This document shows positions 16,378 through 24,199 of a stretch of 64,000 nucleotides of DNA, in pieces. The notes below the pieces were generated by a model. It was given only the letters and a program-made list of their open reading frames with translations. It ran no database searches and was not told the DNA's origin. The DNA is from Pseudomonadota bacterium (GTDB taxonomy: Bacteria > Desulfobacterota > Binatia > Binatales > Binataceae). The DNA is taken from contig JAJPKA010000002.1 in NCBI GenBank assembly GCA_021323945.1, positions 248,001 through 312,000 of the forward strand, in the 5' to 3' direction. The first letter of the stretch is position 1; each line of letters opens with the position of its first letter. The position numbers were made by a program, and so were the translations under genes.

Positions 16378-17982
16378 TTAATGCTCTCCACCGCTCAACT
16401 CATTGGCTGCTATTGGGCAGGAAGTTTCGAACTGCCGGGCCGCGCTCAGCGCGCGAATCATAGCGCGTGCTTTGTTGCATGATTCCTCATACTCTGCGTC
16501 AGGATCCGAATCAGCCACGACGCCGCCACCCGCCTGAATATAGACACGATCGCCCTTGATCAGCAGTGTGCGCAGTGCAATCGCCGTATCGGTATTCCCG
16601 GTAAAGCTAAAATAACCTACCGCTCCGGCGTAGACGCCGCGTCGAACTGGCTCGAGCTCGTCGATGATTTCCATCGCACGAATCTTAGGAGCACCTGAGA
16701 CGGTACCCTGCGGGAAGGTAGCGCGAAAGGCATCGAATGCATCCATGCCGTCGCTGAGCTCGCCCACCACGTTCGAGACGATGTGCATTACGTGCGAGTA
16801 GCGTTCGACGGTCATGAGCTCAGTCACCTTAACCGAGCCGATCTTCGCCACTCGGCCCACATCGTTGCGTCCCAGATCGACCAGCATGATGTGCTCGGCC
16901 AGCTCCTTGGGGTCAGTGAGCAACTCATGCTCCCGTTCGTGGTCTTCGTGCTCATCAGCTCCACGTGGACGGGTCCCGGCTATCGGGCGCAGAGTTATCT
17001 CCCGACCCTCGACCCGCACCATGGTTTCGGGCGAGGCGCCGACCAATGTGAAATCGCCAAGCCGTAAATAGAACATATAAGGCGAGGGATTGATCGTCCG
17101 GAGGCTCCGATAAAGATTAAACGGATGGGCCGTCAGAGGAGCCTCGAAGCGCTGCGACGGAACGACCTGGATAATGTCCCCGGCTGCAATGTACGCCTTG
17201 GCTGCGCGGACCATCGACACATAGTCCTCGCGGGTCATGTTGGAGCTGATTGCTATGTCCTCAAAATGGTCCGGCCGCGAATGAGAAGCTACCTGGAAGC
17301 CCGCATGGTTTTGATTCGGCAAAACCGATGCTAACGCTGGTTGAGAGGGGCTGCTGCGCAGCCGTTCGCGCATCTGCTCAATTTTTTGGTTGGCGAACGT
17401 GTAAGCCGCCACCACGCTGTTGAAATGATCGAGCGCAATATTAGCGATGATTTTCAGCGTCTGACGTACGTTGTCAAAGACCAAAACGGTGTCGGTAAAC
17501 ATCAGGTAGAGCTCCGGAACGCCCAAGTCGTCGCGCACGCTGTTTGGAATCCTGGGCTCGAACAACCGGACCAAATCGTAGGCGAGAAAGCCGACCGCTC
17601 CGCCGAAAAAGCGTGGTAATCCGGCCAGCTCCGGAGCGCGAAATTTTTTAAGCTCCGCCCGCAAGGCCTCGAAACAGTTATCCACCGCGTGCGACTCGAT
17701 GCTGCCCACCCCTTCGGGCCCGACGACAGAGGGCCGAATGAGATCCATTTGCCCGTCTCGCGCCCGCAATACCATAGAGGGCTCTGTGCCGAGAAATGTA
17801 TAGCGTCCCCATTTCTCGCCCCCGCGGACACTTTCGAGCAAAAATGAGTAATCTCCGCGTGCGACTTTCAAAAATGCCGAGACCGGAGTTTCGAGGTCTG
17901 CGGCAACCTCGAGCGCAACCGGGATCAGGTTGAAACCGCGATGAGCCAGCATTTCGCATTCAGCCAAGCTGGGCGTGAGCAT
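16378..17982 (-). CDS. trpE: Anthranilate synthase component I
   Basis: Chorismate to anthranilate, first step of Trp synthesis. 534 aa. The N-terminal LLES segment of the Trp feedback site is present ([20 protein letters not shown]), followed by the chorismate-binding domain with [37 protein letters not shown] and [15 protein letters not shown] 17982 has an excellent Shine-Dalgarno (GGAGGTGA, 5 nt spacing). It is the first structural gene behind the leader and attenuator at 18065-18196. Confidence 0.96.
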
Positions 17983-18064
17983 TGTTCACCTCCGGGTCCG
18001 GCCCAATCTTAATCGTCATCGTACGGCTCTTGGTCAAAGCCGAAACAGCAAGCGAAAATAAAAA

Positions 18065-18090
18065 GGCCGCAGGTTGCATCGCCTGCGGCC
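18065..18090 (-). terminator. Intrinsic terminator of the trp attenuator
   Basis: A perfect 9-bp stem (GGCCGCAGG / CCTGCGGCC, 8-nt loop) is followed on the minus strand by TTTTTATTTT. It lies about 80 nt before trpE and after the leader peptide, so in the minus-strand transcript it would stop RNA polymerase ahead of the operon. On the plus strand the same hairpin is followed by TTTTTT, so it could also work in the other direction. Confidence 0.88.
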
Positions 18091-18115
18091 TGTTTTTTCG
18101 GTTCTGTTAAACGAC

Positions 18116-18196
18116 TTACAAAACCCGAGCGCAGGCGACGACGCCAATCGACGAGCGCCAATCCGCCCAAACGTTACGGGTAGTATAGCCGTGCAT
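18116..18196 (-). CDS. trpL: trp leader peptide (26 aa, two Trp codons)
   Basis: ATG 18196 to TAA 18116 encodes 26 residues with Trp at positions 10 and 13 (VWADW). Its last third overlaps the antiterminator-forming segment. The ribosome-binding site is weak (AAGTGA). The peptide itself probably has no function other than sensing charged tRNA-Trp. Too short for usual gene finders. Confidence 0.78.
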   Translation of the reverse strand: MHGYTTRNVWADWRSSIGVVACARVL

Positions 18197-18204
18197 CGAA
18201 TTTC

Positions 18205-18233
18205 ACTTAGCTGCTACGGGATAGTCTTGTCAA
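18205..18233 (-). promoter_or_regulatory. Possible trp operon promoter
   Basis: A consensus -35 hexamer TTGACA (18228-18233) is followed after 17 nt by CTAAGT (18205-18210), a poor -10. Transcription from here would begin almost at the leader peptide start codon. The -35 match is exact but the -10 is weak, so this is tentative. Confidence 0.35.
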
Positions 18234-19236: not shown

Positions 19237-19295
19237 TGTTCCGGGAGCTGTTCGGCGCATCGGAGCAGCCGCCGCAGTGCCCTGATAAGGCCTCG

Positions 19296-19673: not shown

Positions 19674-19809
19674 GATATATCGCTAGGAATAAGAGGAATG
19701 GGTGATTCATCCTTTAGCCTATCCGTAATTCCAGCCGCATCGATATATCGCTAGGAATAAGAGGAATGGGTGATTCATCCTTTAGCCTATCCGTAATTCC
19801 AGCCGCATC
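19674..19809. repeat. 68-bp tandem duplication (2 copies)
   Basis: Bases 19674-19741 are repeated without visible change at 19742-19809. The unit begins GATATATCGCTAGG. Perfect identity means a recent slippage or recombination event. The unit contains TAGCCTATCC, resembling 8 nt of the CRISPR repeat edge, which may be coincidence. Confidence 0.92.
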
Positions 19810-19961
19810 AATTAGCATAGTCGCGAGACCTATAATTACAAGTAAGAATGCACAGAACTACACGAACATCGCACGAAGGATGTCAATCCACGTTCTATCG
19901 GAATCACTGAAGACTACTAGGCCTTTAAATAGCGGATAACGACTGCGGAGCTTAAGGGTCG

Positions 19962-22900
19962 GGCCTATCCCCGCGGGCGCGGGGCAACCTAAAACTCCAC
20001 ATCAGACGCACCCGGCGTATGCGGCCTATCCCCGCGGGCGCGGGGCAACCTTGCCCGACACCGACTGAACGGTCATCTCCTCGGGCCTATCCCCGCGGGC
20101 GCGGGGCAACCTCCTTCCTCCGTTCCTCATGTATTCGCTCCAAGGGCCTATCCCCGCGGGCGCGGGGCAACCGCTGGTGGATTCCGCGGAGGTATCACTG
20201 GTTGCGGCCTATCCCCGCGGGCGCGGGGCAACCGCTTCGGTCTTCCACTAAAGGCTCCCAGTATTGGGCCTATCCCCGCGGGCGCGGGGCAACCCGGGTA
20301 CTCGCCGCGGTCAAACTCCCGGATGAAGGCCTATCCCCGCGGGCGCGGGGCAACCGTGCCTACATGGTCACGCGCGTTACGTTCTAAAGGCCTATCCCCG
20401 CAGGCGCGGGGCAACCCGTAACGCCCAGCTCTTTTCGCCGGGAGCGTAGGGCCTATCCCCGCAGGCGCGGGGCAACCTGGTCTGCACTCCGGGCGGGGAT
20501 TCCACGGCGGGGCCTATCCCCGCAGGCGCGGGGCAACCGTTTATGGAGACGGCGGCGTCATGCACGTCCGGGGCCTATCCCCGCAGGCGCGGGGCAACCT
20601 TCATTCCAGACATTGCCCGCCTGAAACAGCAGGGCCTATCCCCGCAGGCGCGGGGCAACCCGTGCACCTCGCGACCGCACTCCTGACTCGCGGGGCCTAT
20701 CCCCGCAGGCGCGGGGCAACCTCGTCGGGCATATCGACAAGCTCGATACGCCAAGGCCTATCCCCGCAGGCGCGGGGCAACCCGGTCTTTTTTCAGTTCG
20801 TCGTGAATGCGGAAGGGCCTATCCCCGCAGGCGCGGGGCAACCCGAAAAAGGAGGAGGAATCGATGGCGACACAAGGGCCTATCCCCGCAGGCGCGGGGC
20901 AACCCCAGTTCCTCCGGAGACTGAAAAGAGTCTAAAAGGCCTATCCCCGCAGGCGCGGGGCAACCGGAACTAATATCTGGGGCCCCGGCTCTGGAACAGG
21001 CCTATCCCCGCAGGCGCGGGGCAACCGCTGGCGTGCCTGTGAGTTCTCCGACCTCAGCGGGCCTATCCCCGCAGGCGCGGGGCAACCTACACGACTTCGA
21101 CGACGGTAAATATCCCGAGCGGCCTATCCCCGCAGGCGCGGGGCAACCTCCATCAGATCCGGGTATTTACCCGAATCGAACGGCCTATCCCCGCAGGCGC
21201 GGGGCAACCAGAAGGCTGCGCAGCCAGCGTCTGCACTATATCGGCCTATCCCCGCAGGCGCGGGGCAACCGTCGCGAAACTGACATACCTCGGAGGTATG
21301 CAGGGCCTATCCCCGCAGGCGCGGGGCAACCCCAGGCTTCCCAGAGGATACCCAGCAGCCGAAGGGCCTATCCCCGCAGGCGCGGGGCAACCCAGTTTCG
21401 CGAACTAACCGACGCTCAGGTCGAAGGCCTATCCCCGCAGGCGCGGGGCAACCCAGTTTCGCGAACTAACCGACGCTCAGGTCGAAGGCCTATCCCCGCA
21501 GGCGCGGGGCAACCTGGGAGACTTGATCCAACCAGCTTTTAACCAGCGGCCTATCCCCGCAGGCGCGGGGCAACCCATCCATCGCTATTCCTCCGAAAAA
21601 AAAGCTGGGGCCTATCCCCGCAGGCGCGGGGCAACCATGCAGGTCGCCGCAGAGACGCTTACGGCTGCGGGCCTATCCCCGCAGGCGCGGGGCAACCGCT
21701 GATACGGATCGATCTCCAGGAACAGATAGGGGCCTATCCCCGCAGGCGCGGGGCAACCGCTCGATCGTTATAGAACCGAGCCCACTAAAGGGGCCTATCC
21801 CCGCAGGCGCGGGGCAACCTGTGCCCACCCCCGCATCGAGCACTGGCGCGGGGGCCTATCCCCGCAGGCGCGGGGCAACCCAAGTGCCAGCCGATTAGCA
21901 CTACGCCGATCACGGCCTATCCCCGCAGGCGCGGGGCAACCCAAGGCCGTCAAGGCGGCCGGAATTTGGAGAGAGGCCTATCCCCGCAGGCGCGGGGCAA
22001 CCGTGGTTTGGAAACCAATCCTCACGATTTCATGCGGCCTATCCCCGCAGGCGCGGGGCAACCCCACGAATACCGCCGCCCTCAAAGACAAAAACAGGCC
22101 TATCCCCGCAGGCGCGGGGCAACCCTCCCCAGTGTGTCTCTCGGAAACTCGACGACGGGCCTATCCCCGCAGGCGCGGGGCAACCCCCCATTCTGGTTGG
22201 CTTCAGCCGTTCGAGCCAGGCCTATCCCCGCAGGCGCGGGGCAACCCCACACTCAGAGAAAGGTTAGCGCCAGCAGGAAGGCCTATCCCCGCAGGCGCGG
22301 GGCAACCGGTCAGCCCGGGTGGCCCGCACATACTCCTGAAGGCCTATCCCCGCAGGCGCGGGGCAACCCGTTCCCGTCCTGCTCGATACCGTTCCCGTTC
22401 CGGCCTATCCCCGCAGGCGCGGGGCAACCCGTAACCGGCTTTACGGCAAAGAAGCTGCCGAAGGCCTATCCCCGCAGGCGCGGGGCAACCCTGCGCTGCA
22501 GCTGCGGTCGTGAGGCGATCCGCGGCCTATCCCCGCGGGCGCGGGGCAACCCGGGACGTAGCGGGCGCCGGCGATCCGCACACCGGCCTATCCCCGCGGG
22601 CGCGGGGCAACCCGATAGATGAGTTTGTCATTGCCATCCGATGAGGGCCTATCCCCGCGGGCGCGGGGCAACCGGCGAGCGGCAGCAGATCCTTCAGCGT
22701 CATCCAGGCCTATCCCCGCGGGCGCGGGGCAACCCGATTCTTCGGACTCGATCCGACCTTCCAGTGGGGCCTATCCCCGCGGGCGCGGGGCAACCGCGCG
22801 CGATCACAGACACGATTTGGACCGACCGGGCCTATCCCCGCGGGCGCGGGGCAACCGCGCTAGGCAAGACGCGCTTGACGCCAAGCTCAGGCCTATCCCC

Positions 22901-24199
22901 GCGGGCGCGGGGCAACCCACGCAAGGCTCATGCCAGGGTAGTGCGGCGGGGGCCTATCCCCGCGGGCGCGGGGCAACCGTTTGAGCCAGCGGAGAAGCCC
23001 TACATCGAAAGGGCCTATCCCCGCGGGCGCGGGGCAACCCGCGAGTCGGCGTTTTGGGCTGCACGCGACCGGGGCCTATCCCCGCGGGCGCGGGGCAACC
23101 CGTGCCAGTTTCATGATCATCGAACGCCTCTACGGCCTATCCCCGCGGGCGCGGGGCAACCCTACCGCCATGCGTGGCAAAACATACCCTAACAGGCCTA
23201 TCCCCGCGGGCGCGGGGCAACCTTGTCGAGGACCTTCAACAGATACGTCGCACAGGGCCTATCCCCGCGGGCGCGGGGCAACCTATCAGTCTCTATTCGG
23301 CGCTACTGGTGGTTAAGGCCTATCCCCGCGGGCGCGGGGCAACCCCACGGCGTCGCAGCACAATAACGGCGCGACGGGGCCTATCCCCGCGGGCGCGGGG
23401 CAACCTGGAAGAGCGCTCGCTGGCGGTATGGAACGCGGGGCCTATCCCCGCGGGCGCGGGGCAACCGGCTCCTATCCCGAGACTGCGCCAGGCCAGCCAG
23501 GCCTATCCCCGCGGGCGCGGGGCAACCCTGTTCTCGAAGGTCGCGGTGAAAACCGTGTTGGGCCTATCCCCGCGGGCGCGGGGCAACCGCGGATGATTCC
23601 GCGCGCGCGCATATGTTTGCGGGCCTATCCCCGCGGGCGCGGGGCAACCCGGTTGGCTAGGAACCCCTTGATGCCGGCGCGCGGCCTATCCCCGCGGGCG
23701 CGGGGCAACCCCAATATCAGTTGTCCGGCGGATGCAACTATGGGGCCTATCCCCGCGGGCGCGGGGCAACCCGCTGTATCCGCATACACTCCAATGGCAA
23801 AGACGGCCTATCCCCGCGGGCGCGGGGCAACCTATCACCGAATGACGGTTGCGCGCCCTGCAAAGGGCCTATCCCCGCGGGCGCGGGGCAACCCGTGCCA
23901 GTTTCATGATCATCGAACGCCTCTACGGCCTATCCCCGCGGGCGCGGGGCAACCGCGTTGTTGCTCGATGGCATGATAAACGAATAGGGCCTATCCCCGC
24001 GGGCGCGGGGCAACCGATATCGCCCGCCGCTGTTTTCAGCCGCGAGCGGGCCTATCCCCGCGGGCGCGGGGCAACCCCGGTTGATTGCTCGGTCGCCAGC
24101 CCACCGAAGGGCCTATCCCCGCGGGCGCGGGGCAACCCAAGTCAATGACCCGCCGACGCTGTTTCAAGCCGGGCCTATCCCCGCGGGCGCGGGGCAACC
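19962..24199 (-). CRISPR. Type I-E CRISPR array, 70 repeats / 69 spacers
   Basis: A 28-bp repeat recurs every 61 bp (33-nt spacers; the last interval at 24138-24171 is one longer). On the minus strand the repeat begins GGTTGCCCCGCG and ends GCGGGGATAGGCC, with the palindromic core expected for Cas6e. Orientation is set by this match to type I-E repeats and by the leader lying next to cas2, so the newest spacers are at about 24.17 kb. Two repeat variants differ by one base in the hairpin loop: repeats 1-7 and 43-70 (counted from 19962) read GCGGGCGCGG on the plus strand, repeats 8-42 (20389-22490) read GCAGGCGCGG. Two spacers occur twice. Confidence 0.98.

Follow-up and report, generated by a model that had tools for sequence, protein, structure and literature searches.

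A probable ribosome-mediated attenuator of the trp operon in a Binataceae genome, its conservation across the family and comparable leaders elsewhere in the phylum

Organisation of the trp leader region

The stretch analysed here, referred to below as the window, is 64,000 nucleotides long and belongs to a genome of 3.74 Mb (G000) of the family Binataceae. On its minus strand it encodes a trpE gene that is preceded by a short leader reading frame, by a set of potential RNA helices and by a -35-like box (Table 1). The ORFs located after trpE look by eye like trpG, trpD, trpC, trpF and trpB, the profile match being for trpE alone. The leader ORF extends, on the minus strand, from an ATG at 18196 to a TAA stop codon at 18118-18116 and encodes the peptide MHGYTTRNVWADWRSSIGVVACARVL. 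The original prediction, made from the letters of the window, had described a leader of 26 codons with Trp at codons 10 and 13, an antiterminator (18130-18138 with 18079-18087) and a terminator (18082-18090 with 18065-18073), and all of these coordinates are right on the minus-strand reading. Indeed, (i) segment 2 (18138-18130) is perfectly complementary to positions 18087-18079 over 9 bases, (ii) an inner stem of 8 bp is formed by 18125-18118 and 18107-18100, and (iii) the terminator stem (18090-18082 with 18073-18065) is followed by five T (18064-18060). The antiterminator had been described as 9 nt long; these 9 bases do pair perfectly, but the antiterminator is longer, since its inner stem reaches the stop codon. 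Neither this inner stem nor the probable loss of a third Trp codon discussed below had been part of the original prediction. Whichever strand is read, the hairpin of the window is scored as a terminator, and the fold of the whole region is unremarkable (z -1.86; 7 of 200 shuffles equally low).

Table 1. Positions of the parts of the trp leader region in the window, and loci of comparable leaders in other classes
Feature	Position or locus	Strand	Basis
-35-like TTGACA	18228..18233	minus	sequence; box kept in family stretches
Leader ORF, 26 codons, Trp at codons 10 and 13	18116..18196	minus	ORF reading, family comparison
Segment 1 (approximate), with Trp codons, able to pair with segment 2	18153..18176	minus	duplex prediction and swap test
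Segment 2, antiterminator 5' strand, within leader ORF	18130..18138	minus	sequence, covariation
Inner stem 5' arm, last base is first base of stop codon	18118..18125	minus	covariation
Inner stem 3' arm	18100..18107	minus	covariation
Segment 3, antiterminator part (18087-18079) and terminator part (18090-18082)	18079..18090	minus	sequence, covariation
Terminator, segment 4 (18073-18065) and T-run (18064-18060)	18060..18073	minus	sequence, covariation, terminator scan
trpE, first gene past the leader	16378..17982	minus	NCBIfam trpE_most, 564 bits, cut-off 518
Leu-rich leaders ahead of leuA, other classes	L261, L264, L266, L274, L277, L278		R1 matches
Phe/Tyr-rich leaders ahead of ADH or DAHP synthase, other classes	L263, L268, L271, L272, L279, L280		R1 matches

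Conservation of the leader in the family

The family is represented by 41 genomes, 40 of which have a trpE match. The comparison is based on 40 trpE upstream stretches from 39 of these genomes: G002 is counted twice, as it has two trpE-like genes, and two genomes were excluded, G024 because it lacks a trpE match and G062 because its match begins only at residue 94. The leader start was picked by hand in stretches offering more than one start codon. A leader ORF of 24 to 28 codons with two to five Trp codons is present in all 40 stretches (two Trp codons in 6 stretches, three in 28, four in 5 and five in 1). Trp accounts for 121 of the 1032 leader codons, whereas its frequency in six proteins encoded by this operon is 0.25%, at which at least two Trp in 25 codons would occur by chance with a P of about 0.002. 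Most Trp codons (113 of 121) sit 12 to 17 codons ahead of the stop codon, so that a stalled ribosome would leave segment 2 free. That there are only two Trp codons, as originally pointed out, is true of the window but unusual in the family, in which 34 of the 40 leaders have at least three. The window has TCG at the position 12 codons ahead of the stop, where 36 of the 40 leaders, including that of G001 from the same genus (TGG), have a Trp codon, which suggests that a third Trp codon has probably been lost locally. The end of the peptide is conserved and often reads ACAPVL, and the N-terminal part is highly variable; the conservation of the end is explained by base pairing, its codons being segment 2 and the inner stem. 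The terminator starts 21-27 nt past the stop codon in 35 of 38 scored stretches.

Two divergent trpE-like genes, L133 (G002:C25) and L134 (G017:C235), which share 57% and 63% identity with the trpE of the window, are each preceded by a separate Trp leader and terminator; the one in G002 is a second copy.

Upstream of the leader, a TTGAC box is found at most 60 nt ahead of the start codon in 40 of 40 stretches and has the full form TTGACA in 36; TTGAC occurs in 193 of 8000 shuffled sequences of 40 nt. The best -10-like hexamer ends at a median distance of 10 nt (range 6-23) from the start codon. It is weak in the window, for which a consensus promoter scan reported no promoter. Pairing with the anti-Shine-Dalgarno sequence below -5 kcal/mol was predicted at 5 of 40 leader starts versus 34 of 40 trpE starts. 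The TTGACA box, the short spacing and the few Shine-Dalgarno pairings suggest that the leader ORF is probably leaderless or nearly leaderless.

Covariation of the helices

The 40 attenuator chassis were aligned, and each helix was scored jointly with the inner stem against 500 column shuffles, which ignore relatedness. The antiterminator helix is 85% paired, with a change on both sides in 5 of its 10 pairs; the seven-pair part of the inner stem is 79% paired (6 of 7 pairs changed on both sides) and its two outermost-loop pairs are 77.5% paired; the terminator helix is 96.1% paired over the 40 rows (3 of 9 pairs changed on both sides). Antiterminator and inner stem together have 43 cells changed on both sides versus 16.5 in the shuffles, and none of the 500 shuffles attained the observed value on any of the five measures. 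Terminator and inner stem together have 25 versus 8.7, with no shuffle of 500 reaching the observed value on four measures and 1 of 500 doing so on one. Six slid controls all gave much lower values than those observed. RNAalifold alone, run on the alignment, predicted the terminator and no other helix. Compensatory changes in relatives, which had been proposed as a check, are therefore present in the antiterminator, the inner stem and the terminator, and the covariation of both helices in the 40 stretches agrees with the earlier view that antiterminator and terminator are mutually exclusive.

Folding model and proposed mechanism

The nascent RNA up to segment 4 was folded in silico with the front edge of the ribosome placed 12 nt past the codon being read (PMC4833913). 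With a ribosome on the first or last Trp codon, the core pairing between segments 2 and 3 (2:3) is predicted with P>0.5 in 37 of 40 stretches; once the ribosome has reached the stop codon, none of the 40 shows it. Without any ribosome it is predicted in 21 of 40, among them the window (P 1.0). Three of the 40 stretches, including that of G008, fold otherwise than expected. At equilibrium, the full RNA favours the terminator in 37 to 40 of the 40 stretches in every state; the switch must therefore be kinetic, with timing deciding the outcome. Segments 1 and 2 of the same leader bind better than swapped pairs (0 of 5000 permutations as low, relatedness being ignored), and 31 of the 40 leaders score better with their own pair than on average in swapped combinations. 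In the window RNA, the protector hairpin between segments 1 and 2 is predicted to be weak or absent, because 2:3 forms there even without a ribosome.

The locus is very probably a ribosome-mediated transcription attenuator of the trp operon, a reading already proposed and now borne out by codon content, covariation and modelling. The sequence parts, their conservation and covariation and the codon content of the leaders are its observed basis, from which we infer ribosome stalling and a response to Trp. In brief, the RNA would start at or just ahead of the leader ATG, so that the leader ORF would probably have little or no untranslated RNA in front of it. When Trp-tRNA is scarce, the ribosome would stall at codon 10 or 13, covering segment 1 and leaving segment 2 exposed. 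Segment 2 and the inner stem could then pair with segment 3 before segment 4 is transcribed; with 2:3 paired, no terminator would form and RNA polymerase would continue into trpE.

Other explanations have to be weighed against this one. The hairpin could be a mere bidirectional terminator with an ORF lying upstream by chance, as its scores on both strands and the many weak model matches in the family that resemble plain gene-end terminators would allow; however, a Trp-rich leader ORF preceded by a TTGAC box in 40 of 40 stretches and the covariation of segment 2 with segment 3 make this highly improbable. It is just as hard to believe that Trp is sensed by a T-box, a TRAP-like protein or a riboswitch and that the ORF is incidental, a proposal for which no supporting point was found. 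Indeed, an Rfam scan of the window and 17 related loci detected no family, T-box included, at the gathering score, while the E. coli Trp_leader used as a control was found with 93 bits; the window itself reaches 18.2 bits with the Trp_leader model (RF00513), below the gathering score of 41.

A further proposal, which would add to attenuation, is that the leader RNA or the peptide also acts in trans, like rnTrpL/peTrpL of Sinorhizobium meliloti. By analogy, the leaderless layout is that of S. meliloti, where the RNA starts at the ATG (PMC7298713), and the peptide end, often ACAPVL, is conserved. This end is, however, already explained by base pairing, and the N-terminal part of the peptide is variable; an action in trans is thus unlikely, if less so than the two explanations above. 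Attenuation by a ribosome reading the leader is retained as the preferred reading, and trp attenuation is thereby extended, with strong comparative support, to a whole little-studied family in which Rfam models miss it.

An Asn/Asp copy of the unit and other copies

A second unit is present in G023 (L089, positions 1380-1605 of G023:C280) and was found by a DNA search and by a model of the chassis, R1. It precedes a gene coding for an aspartate--tRNA(Asn) ligase, which scores 459 bits with NF003483 (cut-off 353) and falls under the cut-off of the related model TIGR00458 (308 versus 368). Its leader, MMLDHDNRNANGNRCRCTRACAPVS, contains four Asn, two Asp and zero Trp; the Asn count alone has a P of about 0.005, which is not overwhelming. 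A TTGACA box with a spacer of 17 and a distance of 8 nt to the ATG are in line with the trp units of the family, and segment 2, the inner stem and the terminator also match these units. The highest identity is shared with G002 (81% over 89 nt); the identity with G023's own trp unit is 74% over 87 nt, with ACAAAACAAAACCG in common. At E 1e-60, an aspartate--tRNA(Asn) ligase is found in 1 of 41 genomes of the family and in 1 of 148 genomes of the class. L089 lies on a contig of 5.3 kb, and the contamination given for G023 is 5%. Relatives that have the hairpin but no Trp codons had been named as evidence that would speak against attenuation, and one clear case, that of G023, exists; but its Asn/Asp codons stand ahead of a tRNA ligase gene, which is compatible with the mechanism.

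These observations suggest, tentatively and with somewhat less than even confidence, that the attenuator is a portable cassette in which the codon block can be swapped: in G023, a copy of the whole native trp unit, including the segment 2 that encodes Ala-Cys in frame, may have been re-aimed from Trp to Asn/Asp ahead of an acquired ligase, and the same chassis design may, perhaps through common descent, serve genes for Leu, Phe/Tyr and Trp throughout the phylum. Should the Asn/Asp copy prove functional, nature would have carried out the experiment of redirecting an attenuator by codon replacement; the evolution of such switches would become directly testable, and a ready chassis for sensing various aminoacyl-tRNAs would be at hand.

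Further re-aimed copies were looked for among additional matches of the model, which in the family were listed to E 0.05. Twenty of these candidates were inspected, 14 from the family itself and 6 from elsewhere in its class, and they resemble ordinary gene-end terminators, with the exception of one in G015. This one (L168, G015:C47:14478-14565) is chassis-like (E 8e-7), lies at the end of another reading frame and has no amino-acid leader; it is perhaps a relic or a captured terminator. A pattern of 21 bases searched with at most two mismatches retrieved the trp units, the G023 copy and 10 two-mismatch sites, and a control pattern retrieved 3.

Distribution beyond the family

Within the class, a leader with at least two Trp codons followed by a T-run hairpin was found in 16 of 16 trpE stretches examined in one other family (f2), and in 0 of 44 trpE stretches from 12 other families, one of these stretches being just 160 nt long. 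In this survey, all ORFs with at least two Trp codons were listed in addition to the use of a T-run-hairpin detector. Segment 3 prefers the end of the ORF over the spacer after the stop codon in 31 of 31 scorable units (37 tried), a comparison in which the ORF part was longer than the spacer in most units, which favours pairing with the ORF end. Among 80 named trpE loci, just the two that belong to the family pass the detector requiring a T-run hairpin. The same detector missed 3 of 3 Pseudomonas loci inspected, all of which have a Trp-rich leader ORF, so that negatives among the named loci carry little weight. In a quick tree built on trpE, with 8 rows from the family and 33 of the 80 named loci, the family is separate from the gammaproteobacterial rows.

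Furthermore, the model R1 was run on 395 genomes drawn evenly from the phylum. Of its 39 matches with E no higher than 1e-4, 31 come from genomes that do not belong to the family. Twenty of these 31 were fetched, and the next gene was read: it is leuA in 6 cases, ADH synthase in 5, DAHP synthase in 2 and trpE in 2; the rest include a transporter-like gene (under the model cut-off), an acetate-CoA-ligase-like gene and three cases in which nothing was recognised. The leuA leaders are Leu-rich and the leaders of aromatic genes mostly contain Phe and Tyr, L262 and L275 being unconvincing among the 15. R1 was built on trp units, but just 6 of the 121 Trp codons in the aligned stretches fall within its columns; the agreement between leader codons and genes is therefore largely independent support for these chassis as ribosome-read attenuators. 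The Leu and Phe/Tyr attenuators may either share ancestry with the trp chassis or have converged on its layout. An in-frame GCC-TGC was seen by eye in several leaders of leuA and ADH synthase and is missing in L263, L267, L277 and L280.

Comparison with known attenuators

In the trp operon of E. coli, segment 2 lies after the stop codon of the leader. The E. coli attenuator likewise has a leader ORF with Trp codons and mutually exclusive antiterminator and terminator structures ahead of trpE, but its leader has 14 codons versus 26 in the window, where segment 2 is within the ORF, the inner stem is at the stop codon and a Shine-Dalgarno sequence is probably absent. The location of the antiterminator strand inside the ORF had been presented as unlike E. 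coli; this holds for trp, whereas in thrL and ivbL of E. coli, which concern other amino acids and another lineage, the strand pairing with the 5' arm of the terminator is also in the ORF according to a rough duplex measure. By this measure, segment 2 is in the ORF in 38 of 38 scorable stretches of the family (G007 and G023 being unscorable) and, among seven E. coli leaders, the strand is in the ORF in thrL, ivbL, ilvL, leuL and trpL and after the stop codon in hisL and pheL, with the thrL and ivbL duplexes the strongest. The placement obtained for trpL contradicts the E. coli layout, so that the rough measure can misplace the strand. The idea that an in-ORF antiterminator strand is a new design was dropped, because thrL and ivbL seem to share it; it is probably not new.

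The trpL/trpE(G) region of S. meliloti also has a Trp leader ORF, on an RNA that begins with the ATG (PMC7298713), as proposed for the window. Its trpL has 14 codons, and the likeness noted is one of arrangement. Trp attenuation had been described as known mainly from Proteobacteria, a view that is too narrow, as it also occurs in Actinobacteria, where Corynebacterium glutamicum and Streptomyces venezuelae have been studied experimentally (PMC1262725). According to that source, the actinobacterial attenuators resemble that of the window in having two or three UGG codons, a GC-rich terminator and complementary triples common to both hairpins; they belong to a different lineage and were compared with the window by description, without alignment. 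As stated in a 2010 survey, leader-peptide systems had been shown, to its authors' knowledge, only in Proteobacteria and Actinobacteria, the atypical ermC aside, and the survey itself adds one such system in Firmicutes (PMC2965389). A literature search, whose coverage stopped short of the comparative studies Vitreschak 2004, Merino 2008 and Lopatovskaya 2010, recognised no report of a trp attenuator for this lineage.

CRISPR-like array beside the trp operon

A CRISPR-like array lies near the trp operon at positions 19957-24150 of the window, having been followed to 24150 through repeated translations. Its repeats are about 28 bases long, recur each 61 bases and switch from a form with GCGGGC to a form with GCAGGC near 20390. 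An outlying copy of the repeat is found at 19291, and a perfect tandem duplication of 68 bases (19674-19809) is located between this copy and the array.
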